NCBI GenBank assembly: GCA_014189685.1
Contig: DVAB01000051.1
Location: 1 to 20,800 of the forward strand
Reading direction: 5' to 3'
Length of the DNA: 20,800 bases
Source of the DNA: Candidatus Naiadarchaeum limnaeum
Lineage (GTDB): Archaea; Undinarchaeota; Undinarchaeia; Undinarchaeales; Naiadarchaeaceae
The position numbers were made by a program, and so were the translations under genes. Every line of letters begins with the position of its first letter. Position 1 is the stretch's first letter. Below are positions 3,271-10,168 of this stretch, piece by piece. Under the pieces are notes generated by a model. The model did no database searches and had not been told where the DNA came from. It saw only the letters and a list, made by a program, of their open reading frames with translations.

Positions 3271-5130
3271 TTATTCTAACTGATTTTGTTCTACTTTATA
3301 TATTTGCAATAAGTATTTTTTAGGTATAGTTATCCTACGAAATCCGATGCTCGGCTCATAAACCCCCGTAACAAAATCATAACTGTCTTGCGCATAATCT
3401 TTCTCTTCAAAAACAATATTGCTAAATAAGGATTCATAAAATCTTATATCGATTGCCCTTCTCTCGCACCCCAGCAAAGTAAAGTAGCTTACATTATAGC
3501 CCTTCATTACTTTTACAATATTTTCCATCGAAGCGCTAGGAAATTCCAAGTATTTTCTCCCATTATAAAAGTGAAAAACAGCGACATCGCAACCCATTAT
3601 AACAGCGTCGCTCTCAGTCTCATTATATACAGTTCCAGCCAAGAGCATCATATCTTTTGATCTAGTATCATCCTGAAAAGGAAAGGGTGCATTCTTATCT
3701 AAAAATTTTCCAAAAGTTTGCGGCAGGCTTGACAATACAAAGATTATCAAAAGAGATACTATGATTTTTTCAATTTGCCCTGCGCTGAGCTGCGGTTTTG
3801 GTATTTTACCGCTTATCTTTTGTACTAATTTCTCTAAAGCAACCCACGAGTATACAAGCAAAACCGGCACTACTACGAGCCAATATCTTCCTCCGCCTGG
3901 CCATATTACAGAGAAGAAGAGTGCAAAAAAGACCCAGAGGAGAATGAAGGTTGCGTCCTCTTTATTATCCTTTCTGAATAAGTATAAAGAAGTTGATAGT
4001 ATACCAATATAGGGTATTGAAAGTAAAAGCGCAGAGATTGTTAGTTGATACTTAAGCGTAAGTAGACCAGAATTAGTCAAAAGGAATGCGCCTATTCCAA
4101 AAATTATTAAAAAAGCAACCCATACAGAAAATCTTTTTGTAAACTCTTTAATATTTTTAAAAGAAAGTCCAATAAAAGTAAGTAGGTTTAGCAACATAAA
4201 GTTAGAAAACTGGCTTCCTAAACTTGTAATCAATCTATTTGTATAAACAACGTGGAATGGGAAAGGACCTTGCAAATTAAGCAGAGTAAAGAGGCTTGGT
4301 TTGGTATTTAACCAAAAAAAACTAAAGAATAATGATTCATAATAACCACCATATCCTAGTAGCCATCCGGCATACTTATTCACTGTAAAAAAAGGATCGT
4401 TAAAGAGTAAATAATTTCTCACAAGCCATGGAGAAATAACTGCAAGCGCAACTAGCATGCCATAAATGAATTTTCTTGAAAAACCTTTTTTCATTAAATA
4501 ATAAGCTAATATTATTGCAGGTATAACTGTAATTGTTGCTTGTCGTATCAAGTAAGAAAATCCTAAGAAAAAACCCATTATCAAAAACCATTTTGTGTTA
4601 TCTTCTTTTAGCCCTTTGTAAAAGAAATAAATTGAGGCAACAACAAAGAACGCGAACATAGTATCGCGCTCGCCCCCAAAACTAAGGTTGAATATTGTCG
4701 GATAAACTAGCATTGAAACCGCTGCCAAAAATCCAATTCTATTATTAAAAAATTCTTTTCCCAAAAAGTAAGTTAAGATTGGAAACAAAATTATTCCGAT
4801 AATCATGCTTGGCAATTTAACAGCAAAGGCTGTTTTTCCGAATAACAGTATGGAAGGAATTAAAATTAAAGAAACCCCCGGAAAGCCGTATTCCTCTGGG
4901 TGCGTAATGGAATCAAAAAAAATAAAATATTGGTTTATATAATCTAATGTAAAGCCTTCACCCTTCAAAAAGTTCTCAGCAGCCTCTGAATAGTGAGCAG
5001 GATCTGAAGTGCCGATAAAGTTTATTTTTGAAACAAAATAGGCTTGAACAATAAAAGCTACAATGCTTACAAGCAAAATTGCGATTAAAAAGAGATCGTA
5101 TTTTTTAGCAACAGGTTTTTGTTCATTCAT
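3271..5130 (-). CDS. GT-C family glycosyltransferase (PMT_2/ArnT-like), paralogue 1
   Basis: This 619-residue polytopic membrane protein belongs to the GT-C fold group that uses polyprenyl-phosphate sugars and acts on the outer face of the membrane. A first helix at 12-33 is followed by an outer loop with the likely catalytic acid in GTSD (D43), then the conserved HPEEYGFPGVS stretch near 78, and about ten more helices. Residues after about 480 form a soluble outer domain with two cysteines (C514 in IMGCD and C555 in LLGCERR) shared by all three paralogues here, possibly a disulfide. The STT3 motif WWDxG is not seen, so this is not an oligosaccharyltransferase. It starts 15 bases after the secreted Ig/FN3-like gene and is probably cotranscribed with it, hinting that this protein or similar ones are targets. 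The transferred sugar is unknown. Confidence 0.85.
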   Translation of the reverse strand: MNEQKPVAKKYDLFLIAILLVSIVAFIVQAYFVSKINFIGTSDPAHYSEAAENFLKGEGFTLDYINQYFIFFDSITHPEEYGFPGVSLILIPSILLFGKTAFAVKLPSMIIGIILFPILTYFLGKEFFNNRIGFLAAVSMLVYPTIFNLSFGGERDTMFAFFVVASIYFFYKGLKEDNTKWFLIMGFFLGFSYLIRQATITVIPAIILAYYLMKKGFSRKFIYGMLVALAVISPWLVRNYLLFNDPFFTVNKYAGWLLGYGGYYESLFFSFFWLNTKPSLFTLLNLQGPFPFHVVYTNRLITSLGSQFSNFMLLNLLTFIGLSFKNIKEFTKRFSVWVAFLIIFGIGAFLLTNSGLLTLKYQLTISALLLSIPYIGILSTSLYLFRKDNKEDATFILLWVFFALFFSVIWPGGGRYWLVVVPVLLVYSWVALEKLVQKISGKIPKPQLSAGQIEKIIVSLLIIFVLSSLPQTFGKFLDKNAPFPFQDDTRSKDMMLLAGTVYNETESDAVIMGCDVAVFHFYNGRKYLEFPSASMENIVKVMKGYNVSYFTLLGCERRAIDIRFYESLFSNIVFEEKDYAQDSYDFVTGVYEPSIGFRRITIPKKYLLQIYKVEQNQLE

Positions 5131-5145
5131 CGTTAAAAATTTCAG

Positions 5146-5808
5146 TTATGCCGGCCTCCCGCCTTTTGTCTTTGCAGTGTCATTCGTCCACTCGCCAGTA
5201 TTTCCAGCATTGTCAACTGGTCGCACTTCTAGCTCATAAGTTGTATTTTTAGTTAACCTAGTCGCTTGATACCAATTTACAGGCGCAGAAACATTCTCTT
5301 TGAAAACATTATCAAGATAAACTTCTGCATGGTTGTAATCAGAATTGATTGGATTTGTCCATGTCCAATTTATTTTTGAGCCTGTTGTCATTGTTTCGTT
5401 TAGGTTTGTTATTGGGGCCGGCGGGGCATCTATTACAACATAGCGCTCATGGCTTAAGCCTGTTCTTCCAAATGTATCGTTTGCATAGACTTTAAAGGTA
5501 TAGTTTCCGTCTGCTAGTGACGTCTTGCTCCTAAACCAATTTATACCACTGCCGGACATCGATTCGTTTGTACCATTCCATTGCAGAGTTGCTGAGCTCC
5601 CCTCTTTATTCAGAGTAACATTTATAAAGGTGTAGTTTTTGTTTATTATTTCGTTGTTTGGGGTTGGCAGTACAAAGTGGACAATGGTTTCGCTAAGGTT
5701 AACAGGGCATCGGAAAGACCAGTTACTAAAATCTGCGCCAAAAGATGCCTTGGTGTAAAAAATTAGAATACAAAATATTGCTATAATCTCAATTTTTTTA
5801 CTAGCCAC
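5146..5808 (-). CDS. Secreted Ig-like/FN3-like surface protein
   Basis: The product has 220 residues. Residues 1-24 are a signal peptide: a basic start, a hydrophobic core, then cleavage near ASFGA. Residues about 40-130 match a beta-sandwich repeat common in archaeal surface proteins, recognised by the LADGNYTFKVYANDT pattern. Residues 131-215 resemble a fibronectin type III domain (WTWTNP ... Y-E-L ... VDNAGNTG). About a dozen N-x-S/T sequons suggest heavy N-glycosylation. No membrane anchor or cell-wall signal is seen at the C-terminus. The start is GTG at 5808, because an in-frame TAG lies directly upstream and a purine run (GGTAGG) precedes it. The glycosyltransferase gene follows after 15 bases. 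It may be a small glycosylated exoprotein, or an accessory to the glycosyltransferase. Confidence 0.75.
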   Translation of the reverse strand: MASKKIEIIAIFCILIFYTKASFGADFSNWSFRCPVNLSETIVHFVLPTPNNEIINKNYTFINVTLNKEGSSATLQWNGTNESMSGSGINWFRSKTSLADGNYTFKVYANDTFGRTGLSHERYVVIDAPPAPITNLNETMTTGSKINWTWTNPINSDYNHAEVYLDNVFKENVSAPVNWYQATRLTKNTTYELEVRPVDNAGNTGEWTNDTAKTKGGRPA

Positions 5809-5840
5809 CTACCCGACCTCAGAAAGCCTGATGATTAAAA

Positions 5841-5849
5841 ATATATAAA
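5841..5849 (-). promoter_or_regulatory. Box A for the Ig/FN3 gene and its downstream glycosyltransferase
   Basis: On the minus strand this reads TTTATATAT, 33-41 bases before the GTG at 5808. It predicts transcription start near 5820 and a leader of about twelve bases. It lies between the zinc-ribbon stop codon and the GTG. Confidence 0.5.
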
Positions 5850-5875
5850 GCTTTTCCTTTTGTATCAAAATTCTC

Positions 5876-6031
5876 TTATTCTACCTGATTTCTCCACTTC
5901 TCTGAAGTGCAGCGCGGGCAGCCGACATAGTGCGCAAAAGTCATATAATTGCAGTCCTGGCATACCCTTAGAACTGGTTTTGAGCGATATGCAAGTCCTG
6001 TCCCAACTCCGCCGGAATAAGATTCAACCAT
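5876..6031 (-). CDS. Small zinc-ribbon protein, 51 residues
   Basis: The frame from ATG 6031 to TAA 5876 encodes 51 residues. The first 20 are glycine- and serine-rich, and then come two cysteine pairs, VCQDC (C24, C27) and GCPRC (C38, C41), separated by ten residues: a classic four-cysteine zinc ribbon. The start is supported by a strong Shine-Dalgarno-like GGGAGG (6042-6047 on the minus strand) ten bases upstream. Zinc ribbons of this size occur in archaeal transcription and translation factors and in many uncharacterised adaptor proteins; I do not recognise which this is. Its own box A lies at 6134-6143. An in-frame TGA sits two codons upstream and separates it from a 25-codon frame. A 46-residue frame partly overlaps its 5' end in another phase, so the exact arrangement of this short region is not settled. 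Confidence 0.6.
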   Translation of the reverse strand: MVESYSGGVGTGLAYRSKPVLRVCQDCNYMTFAHYVGCPRCTSEKWRNQVE

Positions 6032-6034
6032 TTT

Positions 6035-6112
6035 TCAAATGCCTCCCAAATTTCTCTTTGAAAAACTTGCGAGGTAACAAATTTCAAGTCCTCGCCAAGT
6101 CTTTTTCCCCAT
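6035..6112 (-). CDS. Possible 25-residue leader ORF ahead of the zinc-ribbon gene
   Basis: ATG at 6112 lies about 22-31 bases after box A (6134-6143), the spacing of a leaderless start. The frame runs 25 codons to TGA at 6035-6037, and the zinc-ribbon ATG follows two codons later in the same phase. The peptide has no recognisable motif. It may be a leader peptide, part of a longer protein broken by a point mutation, or chance. Confidence 0.25.
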   Translation of the reverse strand: MGKKTWRGLEICYLASFSKRNLGGI

Positions 6113-6133
6113 GCCGGAATTAGCTTGATGGCT

Positions 6134-6143
6134 ATTTAAATAT
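6134..6143 (-). promoter_or_regulatory. Box A for the zinc-ribbon gene
   Basis: TATTTAAATA, which reads the same on both strands in its core, lies just after the stop codon of the second glycosyltransferase. On the minus strand it predicts a transcript starting near 6112, with either a leaderless 25-codon frame or an 80-base leader before the zinc-ribbon ATG. Confidence 0.5.
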
Positions 6144-6155
6144 TACTAAGATTTA

Positions 6156-8132
6156 CTAGAATTCTTCTACATCCAAATTTGTTCCATTAGTCGTTATCTT
6201 ATATACACTTGTTTTATATATGGCGGGATGTTCAACATTGTAGGTACTGCGCTGCTCAAAATCTTTTACCAGGATTTTAGAGCCTTTTTCAAAATCTTCG
6301 CGCGAAAAAGTGCGGCCACTGTACAAGGCCTCGAAAAGTCTGACATCTATTGCTCTGCGCTCGCATTTCAATAAAGTAAAATATTTCACATTATAAACTT
6401 TCATTAAAATTAAAACGTCCTTCAGCGGTGCGCTGGGGAGTTCTAAATATTTTCTATCTGTGTAAAAATGGAAGATACCCGCACGGCAGCCCATTATGAC
6501 ATCATCCTTTTCGGTTATGCCCTTAATTTTTTCAGATAAAGAAAGCACATCCTGCGAATCTTGGTCATCTTTAAAAGGGAACTCCGCATTTTTATCAAAA
6601 AATTTCCCAAAGGTTTGCGGTAAACTAAGCAGAATAAATACAAAAAGAAAAATTAAAAGGAATCTCCACGCATCTTCTGTATCAAATTTATTTGTTTTTT
6701 CTGCTAACCAATGCAAGAATCTTTCAATTGCAAACCAAGAATAGATTAATAAAAATGGAACTATTGCTAGCCAATATCGTATAGCAAAAATCCACACAAC
6801 AGCAGAAAAGAGTGCAAATGCAGCCCAAAGGAGTACAAAAACAGTATTTTCTTTGCTATCTTTTCTAAAAAATAAAAATGAAGTTAATAAAATCCCTATA
6901 TATGGAATTGAGGGCAAACCCATATAAAAGAAAGTATTTAGCAAAGTAGTTTGAGGCACTAAACTGTTTACTTGGGCAAATTTATAAAAAAGAAATGCAA
7001 AAATAGAAAAACTTATTAAGAAAATCGCCCACCTTGAAATTCTTTTTGTGATCTGCTGCCTACTTGCCAGAGCAATTCCAACAAAAGCAAGCACATTTAA
7101 AACTATGAAGTCAGCGAACTGCGGGAACAAATTCGTGAAGAATCTTCTTATATAAAAAAGATAAAAGGGATACTGACTGGTTTGAGAGATTAGATAAGAA
7201 GGGCTTGGTTTTGTTACATACCACCAAATTGAAAAAAACCCTTCCTCATAATGGCCCAAATAACTGACCATCCAACCAACGTATATATTTGCTGTGAAAA
7301 AAGGATCTCCGAATATCAGATAATTTCTAATTAACCATGGGGAAACTATGACAGCGCCAAATAGCAATCCATAAATAAATTTTTTAGACCGCGAACTAAT
7401 TAGTTCGTGGGTAGCGACCACAGACTTTGTCTGTGGGTAGCGAAACTGAAAGTTTCGCCTGAAACCTTTGGTTTCGCCTGAAAACTTTTTGTTTACTAAA
7501 TAGTATGCTAAGATAATAGCTGGAAAAACTGCAATTGTCGCCTGCCTGATTAAATAAGAAAATCCTAAAAAAGCACCCATTAAAACAAAATATTTTGTAC
7601 TATCGGTTTTTAGGCCTCTGTAAAAGAAATAAATTCCGGCAACAACAAAAAAGGCGAACATTGTATCGCGCCACCCTCCAAAATTTATTGAGAATATTGT
7701 TGGATAAAATATCATTGAAATTCCTGCTAGAAACCCTATTCGCTCATTGAAGAATTCCTTCCCTAAGAAATAAGTCAAAATTGGAAACAAAATCACTCCA
7801 ATAATCAAACTAGGAAGCTTTACAGCAAAAGCTGTTTTTCCAAACAAAAGAATGAATGGGATTAAGATTAGAGAAACTCCAGGAAAGCCAAATTCTTCTG
7901 GGTGGGAAATTGAATCGAACTTAAAAAAATACTGGTTTATGTAATCAAGAGAAAATCCCTTTCCTTTTAGGACATTTTCAGCAGCCTCTGAAAAATGCCC
8001 CATATCATCAGTTCCAATGTATTTTACTTTTGAAACAAAATATGCCTGAATTAGAAAAGCTGCTATGCTTATAATAAAAAGTACAATTAAAAAGAAATCG
8101 AATTTTTTATTTCTAATATTTTGTTCATTCAT
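6156..8132 (-). CDS. GT-C family glycosyltransferase, paralogue 2, carrying an in-frame palindromic insert
   Basis: This 658-residue membrane enzyme is clearly paralogous to its neighbours, closest by eye to the one at 3271-5130 (both begin MNEQ). It has the same layout: helix at 12-33, likely catalytic acid in GTDD (D42/D43), HPEEFGFPGVS near 78, about ten further helices, and an outer C-terminal domain with the shared cysteines (C549 in IMGCR, C590 in LLKCERR). It probably transfers a sugar from a polyprenyl-phosphate donor outside the membrane. Between two helices, residues 219-250 are an extra hydrophilic, basic loop where both paralogues have one residue. That stretch is encoded by four tandem hairpins (7389-7480). 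The frame stays open, so the protein is probably still made, with a longer and presumably cytoplasmic loop. A 17-codon frame precedes the start. Confidence 0.85.
   Translation of the reverse strand: MNEQNIRNKKFDFFLIVLFIISIAAFLIQAYFVSKVKYIGTDDMGHFSEAAENVLKGKGFSLDYINQYFFKFDSISHPEEFGFPGVSLILIPFILLFGKTAFAVKLPSLIIGVILFPILTYFLGKEFFNERIGFLAGISMIFYPTIFSINFGGWRDTMFAFFVVAGIYFFYRGLKTDSTKYFVLMGAFLGFSYLIRQATIAVFPAIILAYYLVNKKFSGETKGFRRNFQFRYPQTKSVVATHELISSRSKKFIYGLLFGAVIVSPWLIRNYLIFGDPFFTANIYVGWMVSYLGHYEEGFFSIWWYVTKPSPSYLISQTSQYPFYLFYIRRFFTNLFPQFADFIVLNVLAFVGIALASRQQITKRISRWAIFLISFSIFAFLFYKFAQVNSLVPQTTLLNTFFYMGLPSIPYIGILLTSFLFFRKDSKENTVFVLLWAAFALFSAVVWIFAIRYWLAIVPFLLIYSWFAIERFLHWLAEKTNKFDTEDAWRFLLIFLFVFILLSLPQTFGKFFDKNAEFPFKDDQDSQDVLSLSEKIKGITEKDDVIMGCRAGIFHFYTDRKYLELPSAPLKDVLILMKVYNVKYFTLLKCERRAIDVRLFEALYSGRTFSREDFEKGSKILVKDFEQRSTYNVEHPAIYKTSVYKITTNGTNLDVEEF
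7389..7480. repeat. Array of four tandem short palindromes inside a coding gene
   Basis: Four adjacent hairpins can be read directly. Stem 1 is the perfect 16-base palindrome CGAACTAATTAGTTCG (7392-7407), extended by CC/GG and a G-T pair to 7389-7410. Stem 2 is CCACAGAC/GTCTGTGG (7418-7425, 7429-7436) with loop TTT. Stem 3 is GCGAAACT/AGTTTCGC (7440-7447, 7451-7458) with loop GAA. Stem 4 is GAAACC/GGTTTC (7461-7466, 7470-7475) with loop TTT. Short words recur between them: GTAGCGA twice and CGCCTGAAA twice, so the units look related. The array coincides with the roughly 31 residues missing from both paralogous enzymes, and it keeps the reading frame. No other copy was noticed in this window. 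No transposase accompanies it, and there are no spacers of CRISPR type. Confidence 0.85.
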
Positions 8133-8135
8133 AAC

Positions 8136-8189
8136 TTAAAAAATCACTGAAAATAGCAATAGAATAAATTTACCATTAAATAAACTCAT
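8136..8189 (-). CDS. Possible 17-residue upstream ORF before paralogue 2
   Basis: ATG 8189 opens a 17-codon frame that ends in TAA at 8136, one codon before the glycosyltransferase ATG and in the same phase. The predicted peptide is very hydrophobic (FILLLFSVIF at its end). A purine-rich stretch (GGAG, GAAGGG) precedes the ATG, and box A at 8224-8231 would start the transcript just ahead of it. It may be a leader peptide affecting translation of the enzyme, or chance in AT-rich DNA. Confidence 0.25.
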   Translation of the reverse strand: MSLFNGKFILLLFSVIF

Positions 8190-8223
8190 CCCTTCAACTC
8201 CACTAGAGGCTAATAATTGTCGA

Positions 8224-8231
8224 TATATAAA
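8224..8231 (-). promoter_or_regulatory. Box A for glycosyltransferase paralogue 2
   Basis: TTTATATA on the minus strand, about 92 bases before the ATG at 8132, predicts transcription start near 8200 and a leader of about 65-70 bases, unlike most genes here. Weaker AT-rich stretches closer to the gene could act instead. Confidence 0.4.
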
Positions 8232-8325
8232 TCTTTTTGATAATTTGTGCTTCATTTATGAGTTCAGAGGTAAATATAGAAAACCTGCCCTTCCTTAACC
8301 CCCCTAATAGAAGGGTAGATTAAAA

Positions 8326-8334
8326 ATATTTAAA
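8326..8334 (+). promoter_or_regulatory. Box A for glycosyltransferase paralogue 3
   Basis: ATATTTAAA lies 23-31 bases before the ATG at 8357, giving a leaderless start. It faces away from the promoter of the divergent paralogue, about 100 bases away. Confidence 0.55.
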
Positions 8335-8356
8335 CATTATCTTTATAGAAGCCTGC

Positions 8357-10168
8357 ATGGATGAAAAAGCAAAAAAAGTTGATTTTTACCTGATCGCAAT
8401 CCTAATTGTAGGGATTTCTGTCTTTATCGCAGAAGCCTATTTTGTCTCAAAGATAATTTATGTTGGAAATCTGGATTTGCAGCTCTATACAAACGCTGCT
8501 GAGAATCTCATTGCAGGCAATGGATTTAAGCTTGATTTCATAAATGAGTATTTTATAAAATTTCAATCAATCACGCACCCGGAGGAGTATGGATTTCCAG
8601 GGGTTTCAATTGTAATAGCGCCTTTTATCTGGCTTTTTGGGAAAAGTGCCTTTACTGCAAAGCTGCCAAGCATGCTAATCGGAACTATTCTGTTTCCGCT
8701 TTTAATTTATTTTCTTGGGAAAGAATTCTTTGATAGAAAAATCGGATTTTTAGCCGGGGTTTCAATGATTTTTTACCCTGCAGTATTTAAGCTTAGCTTT
8801 GAGGGCGAGCGCGATGTTATGTTTGCTTTCTTTTTAGCCCTGGGAATTTATTTTTTCTATATGGGACTGAAAGAAAAGAAATATTTTTACCTCATGGGCG
8901 CGGTTTTAGGATTTTCCTTCCTCATTAGACAAGTAGCTCTAATAATTTTCCCAATAATAATTTTAGCATATTATTTGATAGAAAAGAAAATTTCCCGCGA
9001 ATTCCTAATCGGATTAATTTTGAGCGCAGCAGTTATGTCCCCCTGGCTCATAGGAAACTATTTGGTTTTTGGCAACCCGATTTTTTCAGTAAATCAATAC
9101 GTTGTTTGGATTGATAGATATGTTGAACATTATGAACAGTACATGTTTGCTGTTTACTGGAATGGAGGGGTAAGAGAGCTCCCCTCTGCTCTCTGGGTAT
9201 TCAATCAGCCTTTTGGGAAATCCTTTTACTTTATGAGAGTGCTCAGTACTTTTACAGCAGAACTTTTGAGCTTTTTCTTTTTGAGCATTCTTTCATTTAT
9301 CGGGATTGTGCTAAATTCTGCAAAAAGGCTTGGCAATAGAGTTAAATTGTGGATAGTTTTTCTTATAGTGCTTGCTTTTTTGCTTGATTTACCGCTGCTC
9401 CCCGCATTTGCAAAATTTCCTTTGCTCTATATCGGATATACTTTAAAAGACGTTGCAATAATAGTTTTGCGCGCCCTTCCATATATAGGGATAGTTTTAA
9501 CAGCACTCTTTTTGTTTGCAAAAGAATCAAAGAGAAATGCAGTTTTCATTTTATTATGGAGCACTTTCGCAGCTTTCTTTGCATTTTACTGGCTGTTTGA
9601 GAAAAGATATTTCCTCCCAGTAATTCCTTTCCTGCTAATTTTTTCATGGGTTGGGGCACGCTCTATTTTGGAAAAACTTTTAGAAAATTTTCCGAATTTC
9701 CAAAGATTCAAAATAAATATTGATAAAACACTTGCCATAATTTTAATAATTTTTATACTAATCAGCCTCCCCTACACTTTTGGAAAATTTCTTGATGAAA
9801 AAGGAAAATTTCCCTACAGAGATGGTGAGCAAGAAAAGCAAACGCTGTATATGGCTCAAAAAATAAATAGCATAACTGAAAAAGACGCTGTGCTAATGGC
9901 ATGCGACCTAGGAGTTTTTAATTTCTACACAGGTAGAAAAACTGTTGAAATGCCTTCTGATAATTTACAGAATACACTTGGGATTGTAAAAATTTACAAT
10001 GTAAGCCATATCAATTTTATGGGCTGTCAGACGCGATTTGTTGATAAGGGGTTTCTTAAAATAATAACTGGAAGCTATCCGCCGCCTTCTGGATATGAGT
10101 TCAATCTCTATGAAATACGGCCAAGAGAAGCCGGGGAGAGAGTTGAGATTGAAGTAATAACGCATTAG
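8357..10168 (+). CDS. GT-C family glycosyltransferase, paralogue 3
   Basis: This 603-residue multi-helix protein shares the layout of the two minus-strand enzymes but is the most diverged. The first helix is at about 9-30, the likely catalytic acid is in VGNLD (D40), and the THPEEYGFPGVS block follows. About ten helices come next, then an outer C-terminal domain with the shared cysteine pair (LMACD and FMGCQTR). The CERR motif of the others has become CQTR, so donor or acceptor choice may differ. The loop where paralogue 2 carries its palindromic insert is short here. It is divergent from paralogue 2, with its own leaderless promoter. Its stop codon lies one base from the end of the converging YdjM-like gene. 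The expected role is transfer of a sugar from a lipid-linked donor onto a glycan, lipid or protein outside the membrane. Confidence 0.85.
   Translation: MDEKAKKVDFYLIAILIVGISVFIAEAYFVSKIIYVGNLDLQLYTNAAENLIAGNGFKLDFINEYFIKFQSITHPEEYGFPGVSIVIAPFIWLFGKSAFTAKLPSMLIGTILFPLLIYFLGKEFFDRKIGFLAGVSMIFYPAVFKLSFEGERDVMFAFFLALGIYFFYMGLKEKKYFYLMGAVLGFSFLIRQVALIIFPIIILAYYLIEKKISREFLIGLILSAAVMSPWLIGNYLVFGNPIFSVNQYVVWIDRYVEHYEQYMFAVYWNGGVRELPSALWVFNQPFGKSFYFMRVLSTFTAELLSFFFLSILSFIGIVLNSAKRLGNRVKLWIVFLIVLAFLLDLPLLPAFAKFPLLYIGYTLKDVAIIVLRALPYIGIVLTALFLFAKESKRNAVFILLWSTFAAFFAFYWLFEKRYFLPVIPFLLIFSWVGARSILEKLLENFPNFQRFKINIDKTLAIILIIFILISLPYTFGKFLDEKGKFPYRDGEQEKQTLYMAQKINSITEKDAVLMACDLGVFNFYTGRKTVEMPSDNLQNTLGIVKIYNVSHINFMGCQTRFVDKGFLKIITGSYPPPSGYEFNLYEIRPREAGERVEIEVITH

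Follow-up and report, generated by a model that had tools for sequence, protein, structure and literature searches.

How four closely spaced palindromes came to lie within the open reading frame of a membrane enzyme is the question raised by one gene of Candidatus Naiadarchaeum limnaeum. The window analyzed here is one whole contig (C38; 20,800 nucleotides) of a 984-kb archaeal genome that is 98% complete. Its gene at 6156..8132 (minus strand) is a stop-free ORF encoding a 658-aa multi-pass membrane glycosyltransferase of PMT_2 type (profile search match to PF13231 PMT_2, E 8.5e-18). The family is expanded within this genome to about nine members (window 3271-10168; contigs C3, C12, C13, and C26), and it gave no match at E 1e-15 in the 30 other archaeal genomes searched. 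Alignment with eight glycosyltransferase paralogues from the same genome reveals a gap of exactly 31 residues, filled in none of the eight, which corresponds to an insertion at 7387..7479 (minus strand) of 93 bp or 31 codons, GETKGFRRNFQFRYPQTKSVVATHELISSRS, its boundary being ambiguous with respect to a flanking Ser. The two closest paralogues keep TTTTCA at the point where the insertion starts. The target flank, GTTTTC, occupies 7480..7485 (minus strand), and its TC is found again at the insertion's right end; the coding phase is open across 7387-7479, with no stops. A first-pass annotation of the locus had already placed an insert here and had judged it close to 93 bases net, a multiple of three, and stop-free, all of which agrees with the paralogue alignment. 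The limits that it gave (7389-7480) are slightly displaced, and its estimate of 32 residues, set against a single one in two paralogues, is revised to exactly 31 against eight.

The palindromes themselves occupy 7389-7410, 7418-7436, 7440-7458, and 7461-7475, and the recurring words that had been proposed to join them, GTAGCGA and CGCCTGA(AA), are indeed found between them. The hairpins are real and far above chance expectation. None of 100 dinucleotide shuffles of the window contained a cluster of four palindromes (arm at least 6, within 100 bp), and the fold of the insertion strand, at -40.6 kcal/mol (z = -7.1), was equalled in 0 of 200 shuffles. The AlphaFold model of the enzyme is too poor to be relied on (mean pLDDT 41); it places residues 218-235 in coil between two helices, with low confidence. 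A predicted RNA fold of this strength, together with the presence of related hairpin elements within tRNA introns (described below), might point to hairpins that act as mRNA structure, in pausing or regulation, or to an intron excised by the tRNA-splicing endonuclease of archaea. No pairing between the two ends of the insertion is predicted, however, leaving no evident bulge-helix-bulge, and splicing through such a structure was rejected on these grounds. The inserts are also stop-free with lengths that are multiples of three, which splicing would not need, and a role as RNA structure or as a spliced intron is given only a very low probability.

The repeat unit, read on the coding strand, is TC^AGGCGAAACCnnnGGTTTCGC-TAC-CCGCAAACnnnGTTTGCGG-TC, which amounts to 45 bp counting one TC, and it consists of two 8-bp hairpins (B and A), each with a loop of 3 bases, separated by a TAC linker. 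The order in the glycosyltransferase gene is part of a B hairpin, a complete 45-bp unit, the remaining B hairpin, TAC, and an A hairpin. The first half of an outer copy, E1, lies at 7461..7479 (minus strand; AGGCGAAACCAAAGGTTTC), where hairpin B is broken before its last GC, and the second half at 7387..7415 (minus strand), comprising GC TAC, hairpin A1 (7389-7410), and TC. Enclosed between them is the nested copy E2 (7416..7460, minus strand; B2 at 7440-7458, TAC, A2 at 7418-7436, and the terminal TC), which is exactly 45 bp long and matches in length and boundaries the copies found in two other genes, glmS and rpsB. Excision of E2 in silico brings ...GGTTTC to GCTACC..., so that the 8-bp B stem of E1, GCGAAACC/GGTTTCGC, is perfect again in an outer copy of 48 bp. 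Because removal of these 45 bp restores the stem, the array reads as one unit inserted within an older copy after its TTTC. The four palindromes of the first-pass annotation thus stand, while the tandem single hairpins that it saw in them are replaced by a 45-bp hairpin pair nested in a second copy.

The two further copies, in glmS and rpsB, were recovered independently of any model when the genome that contains the array was searched with it by BLAST (E 5e-5 and 1e-3). A covariance model of the unit also scored three places about 40 bits above all else in the genome; it was trained on the same three places, and BLAST constitutes the independent evidence. The string GTAGCGACGCCTGAAA gave no exact match because its two words never adjoin, and both BLAST and the covariance model did better. 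In total, four unit copies reside at three places on three contigs of the 984-kb genome, none of these places being clearly intergenic. Both glmS and rpsB are single-copy genes. The insertion in glmS (C51) measures exactly 15 codons, 45 bp, and falls in the linker before the SIS domain; it is certainly in frame, and it is absent from all aligned relatives (26 sequences, 24 genomes), which lie outside the family of the host, whose phylum is represented by six genomes, all of one order. In the ribosomal protein S2 gene rpsB (C13), 45 bp stand directly after MEKTK, probably in frame, and an alignment of relatives finds the N-terminal region of S2 too poorly conserved for an empty site to show. 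The start of rpsB may instead be a downstream GTG, which would leave the unit in the 5' untranslated region. According to the first-pass annotation, the idea of an invading element would fall if the genome held no other copy or if orthologues in distant relatives all carried the same loop at protein level without palindromes; the genome search supplied glmS and rpsB, and relatives and paralogues display empty sites. Outside this genome the covariance model returned nothing convincing in 20 relatives and, in 87 genomes of another archaeal phylum, weak matches only, outside ORFs. Viral contigs contained no exact match to one hairpin pattern of the unit, and Rfam at gathering score reported only tRNAs in the window and seven loci.

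The same annotation had suggested stepwise duplication, and local tandem duplication of a hairpin within the glycosyltransferase gene, with no mobile element, would account for adjacent stems that are related but not identical and share recurring words. Two unrelated genes on other contigs nevertheless contain this two-hairpin unit with the same boundaries, and the joins of the array are exactly those expected of a unit that entered another at the shared TTTC target; duplication in place is accordingly regarded as very improbable.

Across the four unit copies, both partners have changed in 4 of 16 stem pairs, and pairing is kept in 62 of 64 cells (96.9%), either value being reached in only 5 of 500 shuffles. 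The reading frames used also differ, with RRNxxFRYPQT encoded in glmS and E2 and GETxGFAT in rpsB and E1. Since the stem changes are compensatory and two reading frames are used, these four sequences are suggestive of a unit kept as a nucleic-acid palindrome and not as a peptide. The perfect palindromes could also be kept by hairpin-templated repair, and the common orientation of all copies is weakly informative because most frames are open on both strands. Inserts that keep the frame, contain no stops, and in the clear cases occupy linkers or loops might also be expected had they been selected as protein, as basic loop peptides functional in each enzyme. Yet the two frames yield peptides that differ between genes, the sequence changes preserve DNA pairing, and the enzymes of relatives manage without the insert, so that selection for the peptides is hardly credible.

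The account preferred here, and held with considerable confidence, is that a small mobile DNA element, non-coding and made of two hairpins, is present twice in the array through nested in-frame insertions, and that the same element is present in glmS and rpsB. It draws on directly observed repeats, empty sites, nesting, exact lengths, two reading frames, and compensatory stem changes. The element would consist of a 43-46 bp core plus the repeated TC, with two adjacent short hairpins. A first copy would have entered the glycosyltransferase gene after TTTC, and a second copy would later have entered the first after the latter's own TTTC. As both insertions are multiples of three and stop-free in the frame used, the frame would have been kept and an extra loop of 31 residues encoded. 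Further insertions of the element would have added 15 codons to glmS and placed a copy at the start of rpsB. Insertions that disrupted a frame or a fold would have been eliminated, the survivors being in frame, stop-free, and in tolerant loops; the inserts are presumably translated within host enzymes that remain functional, the encoded peptide being incidental. The compensatory changes in the stems and the position of the insertions after (A/T)TC make it probable that the element spreads as DNA and not for the peptide that it encodes.

The left flanks of the four insertions are TTTC, TTTC, ATTC, and AATC and the right ends TC, TC, TT, and TC, a target rule and TC repeat that derive from four events only, with boundaries ambiguous by one or two bases. 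A 2-bp target duplication of TC and a fixed target combined with an element ending in TC fit equally well. All four events follow (A/T)TC and each unit has two hairpins, which could reflect insertion 3' of a short fixed target with a hairpin at each end, as in an IS200/IS605-derived miniature element, or equally a 2-bp duplication of TC. By analogy with IS200/IS605 and REP elements, the presumably mobile and non-autonomous unit was most likely recognized by its hairpins and carried in trans, in single-stranded form, by an enzyme that may since have been lost. Searches of the genome returned 0 matches to PF01797 (TnpA/RAYT, Y1), with positive controls in E. coli and others, and no match to PF07282 (TnpB), again with a positive control. 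Neither of the partners expected of an IS200/IS605-derived miniature element, TnpA and TnpB, was detected in the genome.

A more specific affiliation would be with the GTAG-tagged REPs, miniature repeats moved by the REP-associated tyrosine transposase (RAYT). GTAG/CGTC-tagged REPs have stems of 6-13 bp and loops of 2-3 bases; they are usually intergenic, often abundant, and tied to RAYT transposases, and intragenic dimers or groups of them encode 20-30 residues (PMC3733652). In all four copies of the unit the B hairpin is GTAG-tagged on the plus strand, the outer one when read across the nested insert, and each consists of 5'-GTAG, a 7-bp stem, and a 3-nt loop, within the size range of GTAG REPs (PMC3733652). 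Intragenic REP dimers that encode 20-30 residues are known, but the unit is a fixed pair whose second hairpin is different and, in the glmS and rpsB copies, has no 5' GTAG of its own, it has four copies only, and no Y1 transposase domain was detected in the 98% complete genome by a search whose control was positive. The survey of GTAG REPs, moreover, was made in bacteria and lists them there only (PMC3733652). Membership of the unit in the GTAG REP/RAYT system fails on transposase and copy number, and true kinship with it is unlikely.

Among systems already described, in-frame palindromes in conserved genes are presented as the defining mark of the elements found in Rickettsia and Wolbachia (PMC2229807, PMC10969869, PMC2996958). 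The Rickettsia palindromic elements (RPEs), as outlined in later papers, measure 105-150 bp, form long stem-loops, and occur in dozens of copies (Ogata et al. 2000, 2002; in PMC2229807, PMC10969869). Like an RPE, the unit is an in-frame palindromic repeat in conserved protein genes with no evident peptide function, and some RPE hosts carry repeat clusters that recall the array. In contrast to RPEs, it is a 45-bp double hairpin found at three sites in an archaeon, and its size and architecture set it apart from RPE-1 to RPE-10 as these are described (PMC2229807). The kinship in kind with Rickettsia elements that had been proposed for the locus is borne out by the dispersed in-frame copies and the empty sites. 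As far as their description in a citing paper goes, the Wolbachia protein-coding palindromic repeats (WPE; Ogata 2005, cited in PMC2229807) resemble the unit as a coding-capable palindromic repeat in protein genes of a reduced genome, but they are bacterial. Protein-coding palindromic repeats have also been reported from Methanocaldococcus jannaschii (Suyama, Lathe and Bork 2005, cited in PMC2229807, PMC2996958); by the description given there, they share with the unit the character of an archaeal palindromic repeat with coding potential fused into protein genes, although M. jannaschii, unlike the present host, is a methanogen. A dispersed unit combined with in-frame insertion and empty sites conforms to protein-coding palindromic elements in general, and the unit is a new family of this already known kind. 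It is not the first in archaea, because the M. jannaschii coding palindromes were reported in 2005, and the earlier suggestion that nothing alike was known in archaea is not upheld.

A companion family of about 15 mainly intergenic elements is present in the same genome. Its plan is ACA, a 10-bp hairpin with a 3-nt loop, 1 nt, and an 11-bp hairpin with a 3-nt loop, and elements are located at C1:644-697, C6:3531-3584, C7:88944-88997, C12:3404-3457, C13:28195-28248, C17:6348-6401, C17:52174-52227, C19:1931-1984, C27:7017-7070, C28:1810-1863, C32:5388-5441, C41:313-366, C45:4208-4260, C50:18148-18201, and C51:16987-17040. Some lie inside a larger predicted cloverleaf with an outer stem such as GGCCAC/GTGGCC. 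The stems are strongly divergent in sequence with pairing kept: in nine copies, first chosen by perfect arms, 15 of 21 pairs are changed on both sides and 0 are unpaired. No Rfam match was obtained in the five companion loci scanned (L005-L009). An exact 17-mer, GAAACCTTTGGTTTCGC, connects the companion family with the 45-bp coding family. Close double hairpins numbered 18 in the sampled stretches vs. 0-4 in 20 shuffles; 654 kb of the genome was read directly, and the model searches covered all of it.

Several other hairpin loci were noted. The tRNA-Trp(CCA) gene on C41 (L067, 211-501) has a predicted 215-nt intron that holds a companion element at 315-363, and in a genome of another archaeal phylum (G045, loci L174 and L177) double hairpins of the same plan occur in tRNA-like genes whose introns are predicted to measure 120-133 nt. 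Trimmed variants of the companion double hairpins lie in frame in ftsY, where one falls in the protein's acidic N-terminal region (L194 1501-1549 = C3:8060-8108), and in an acidic 276-aa ORF (L039 1501-1552 = C43:12842-12893). On C8, locus L047 contains at about 1480-1550 a 51-bp sequence with an acceptor-like stem, GCCGAGG/CCTCGGC, near a predicted split tRNA gene, and is perhaps a tRNA fragment. A covariance-model match to the 45-bp unit at C8:8176 (E 0.24) was dismissed, since it probably represents a fragment resembling tRNA-Leu next to a tRNA gene.

A broader proposal, speculative and rather doubtful at present, is that more than one archaeal phylum harbors a group of double-hairpin elements that travel as single-stranded DNA with the help of an unrecognized enzyme and invade coding genes, tRNA introns, and intergenic DNA; the smallest of them would be the 45-bp coding family, which would target (A/T)TC and be able to nest. 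So far as the literature searched shows, the 45-bp family would be the second archaeal case of palindromic DNA enlarging proteins in frame, and it is an unusually clear one: the 45-bp units are exact, one insertion is nested, and both paralogues and relatives have empty sites. Pairs with and without the insert, in which the tolerance of enzymes for new loops may be studied, are provided by glmS and by the glycosyltransferase paralogues. Since the usual Y1 transposase is absent, one may ask what mobilizes such elements in small archaeal genomes.
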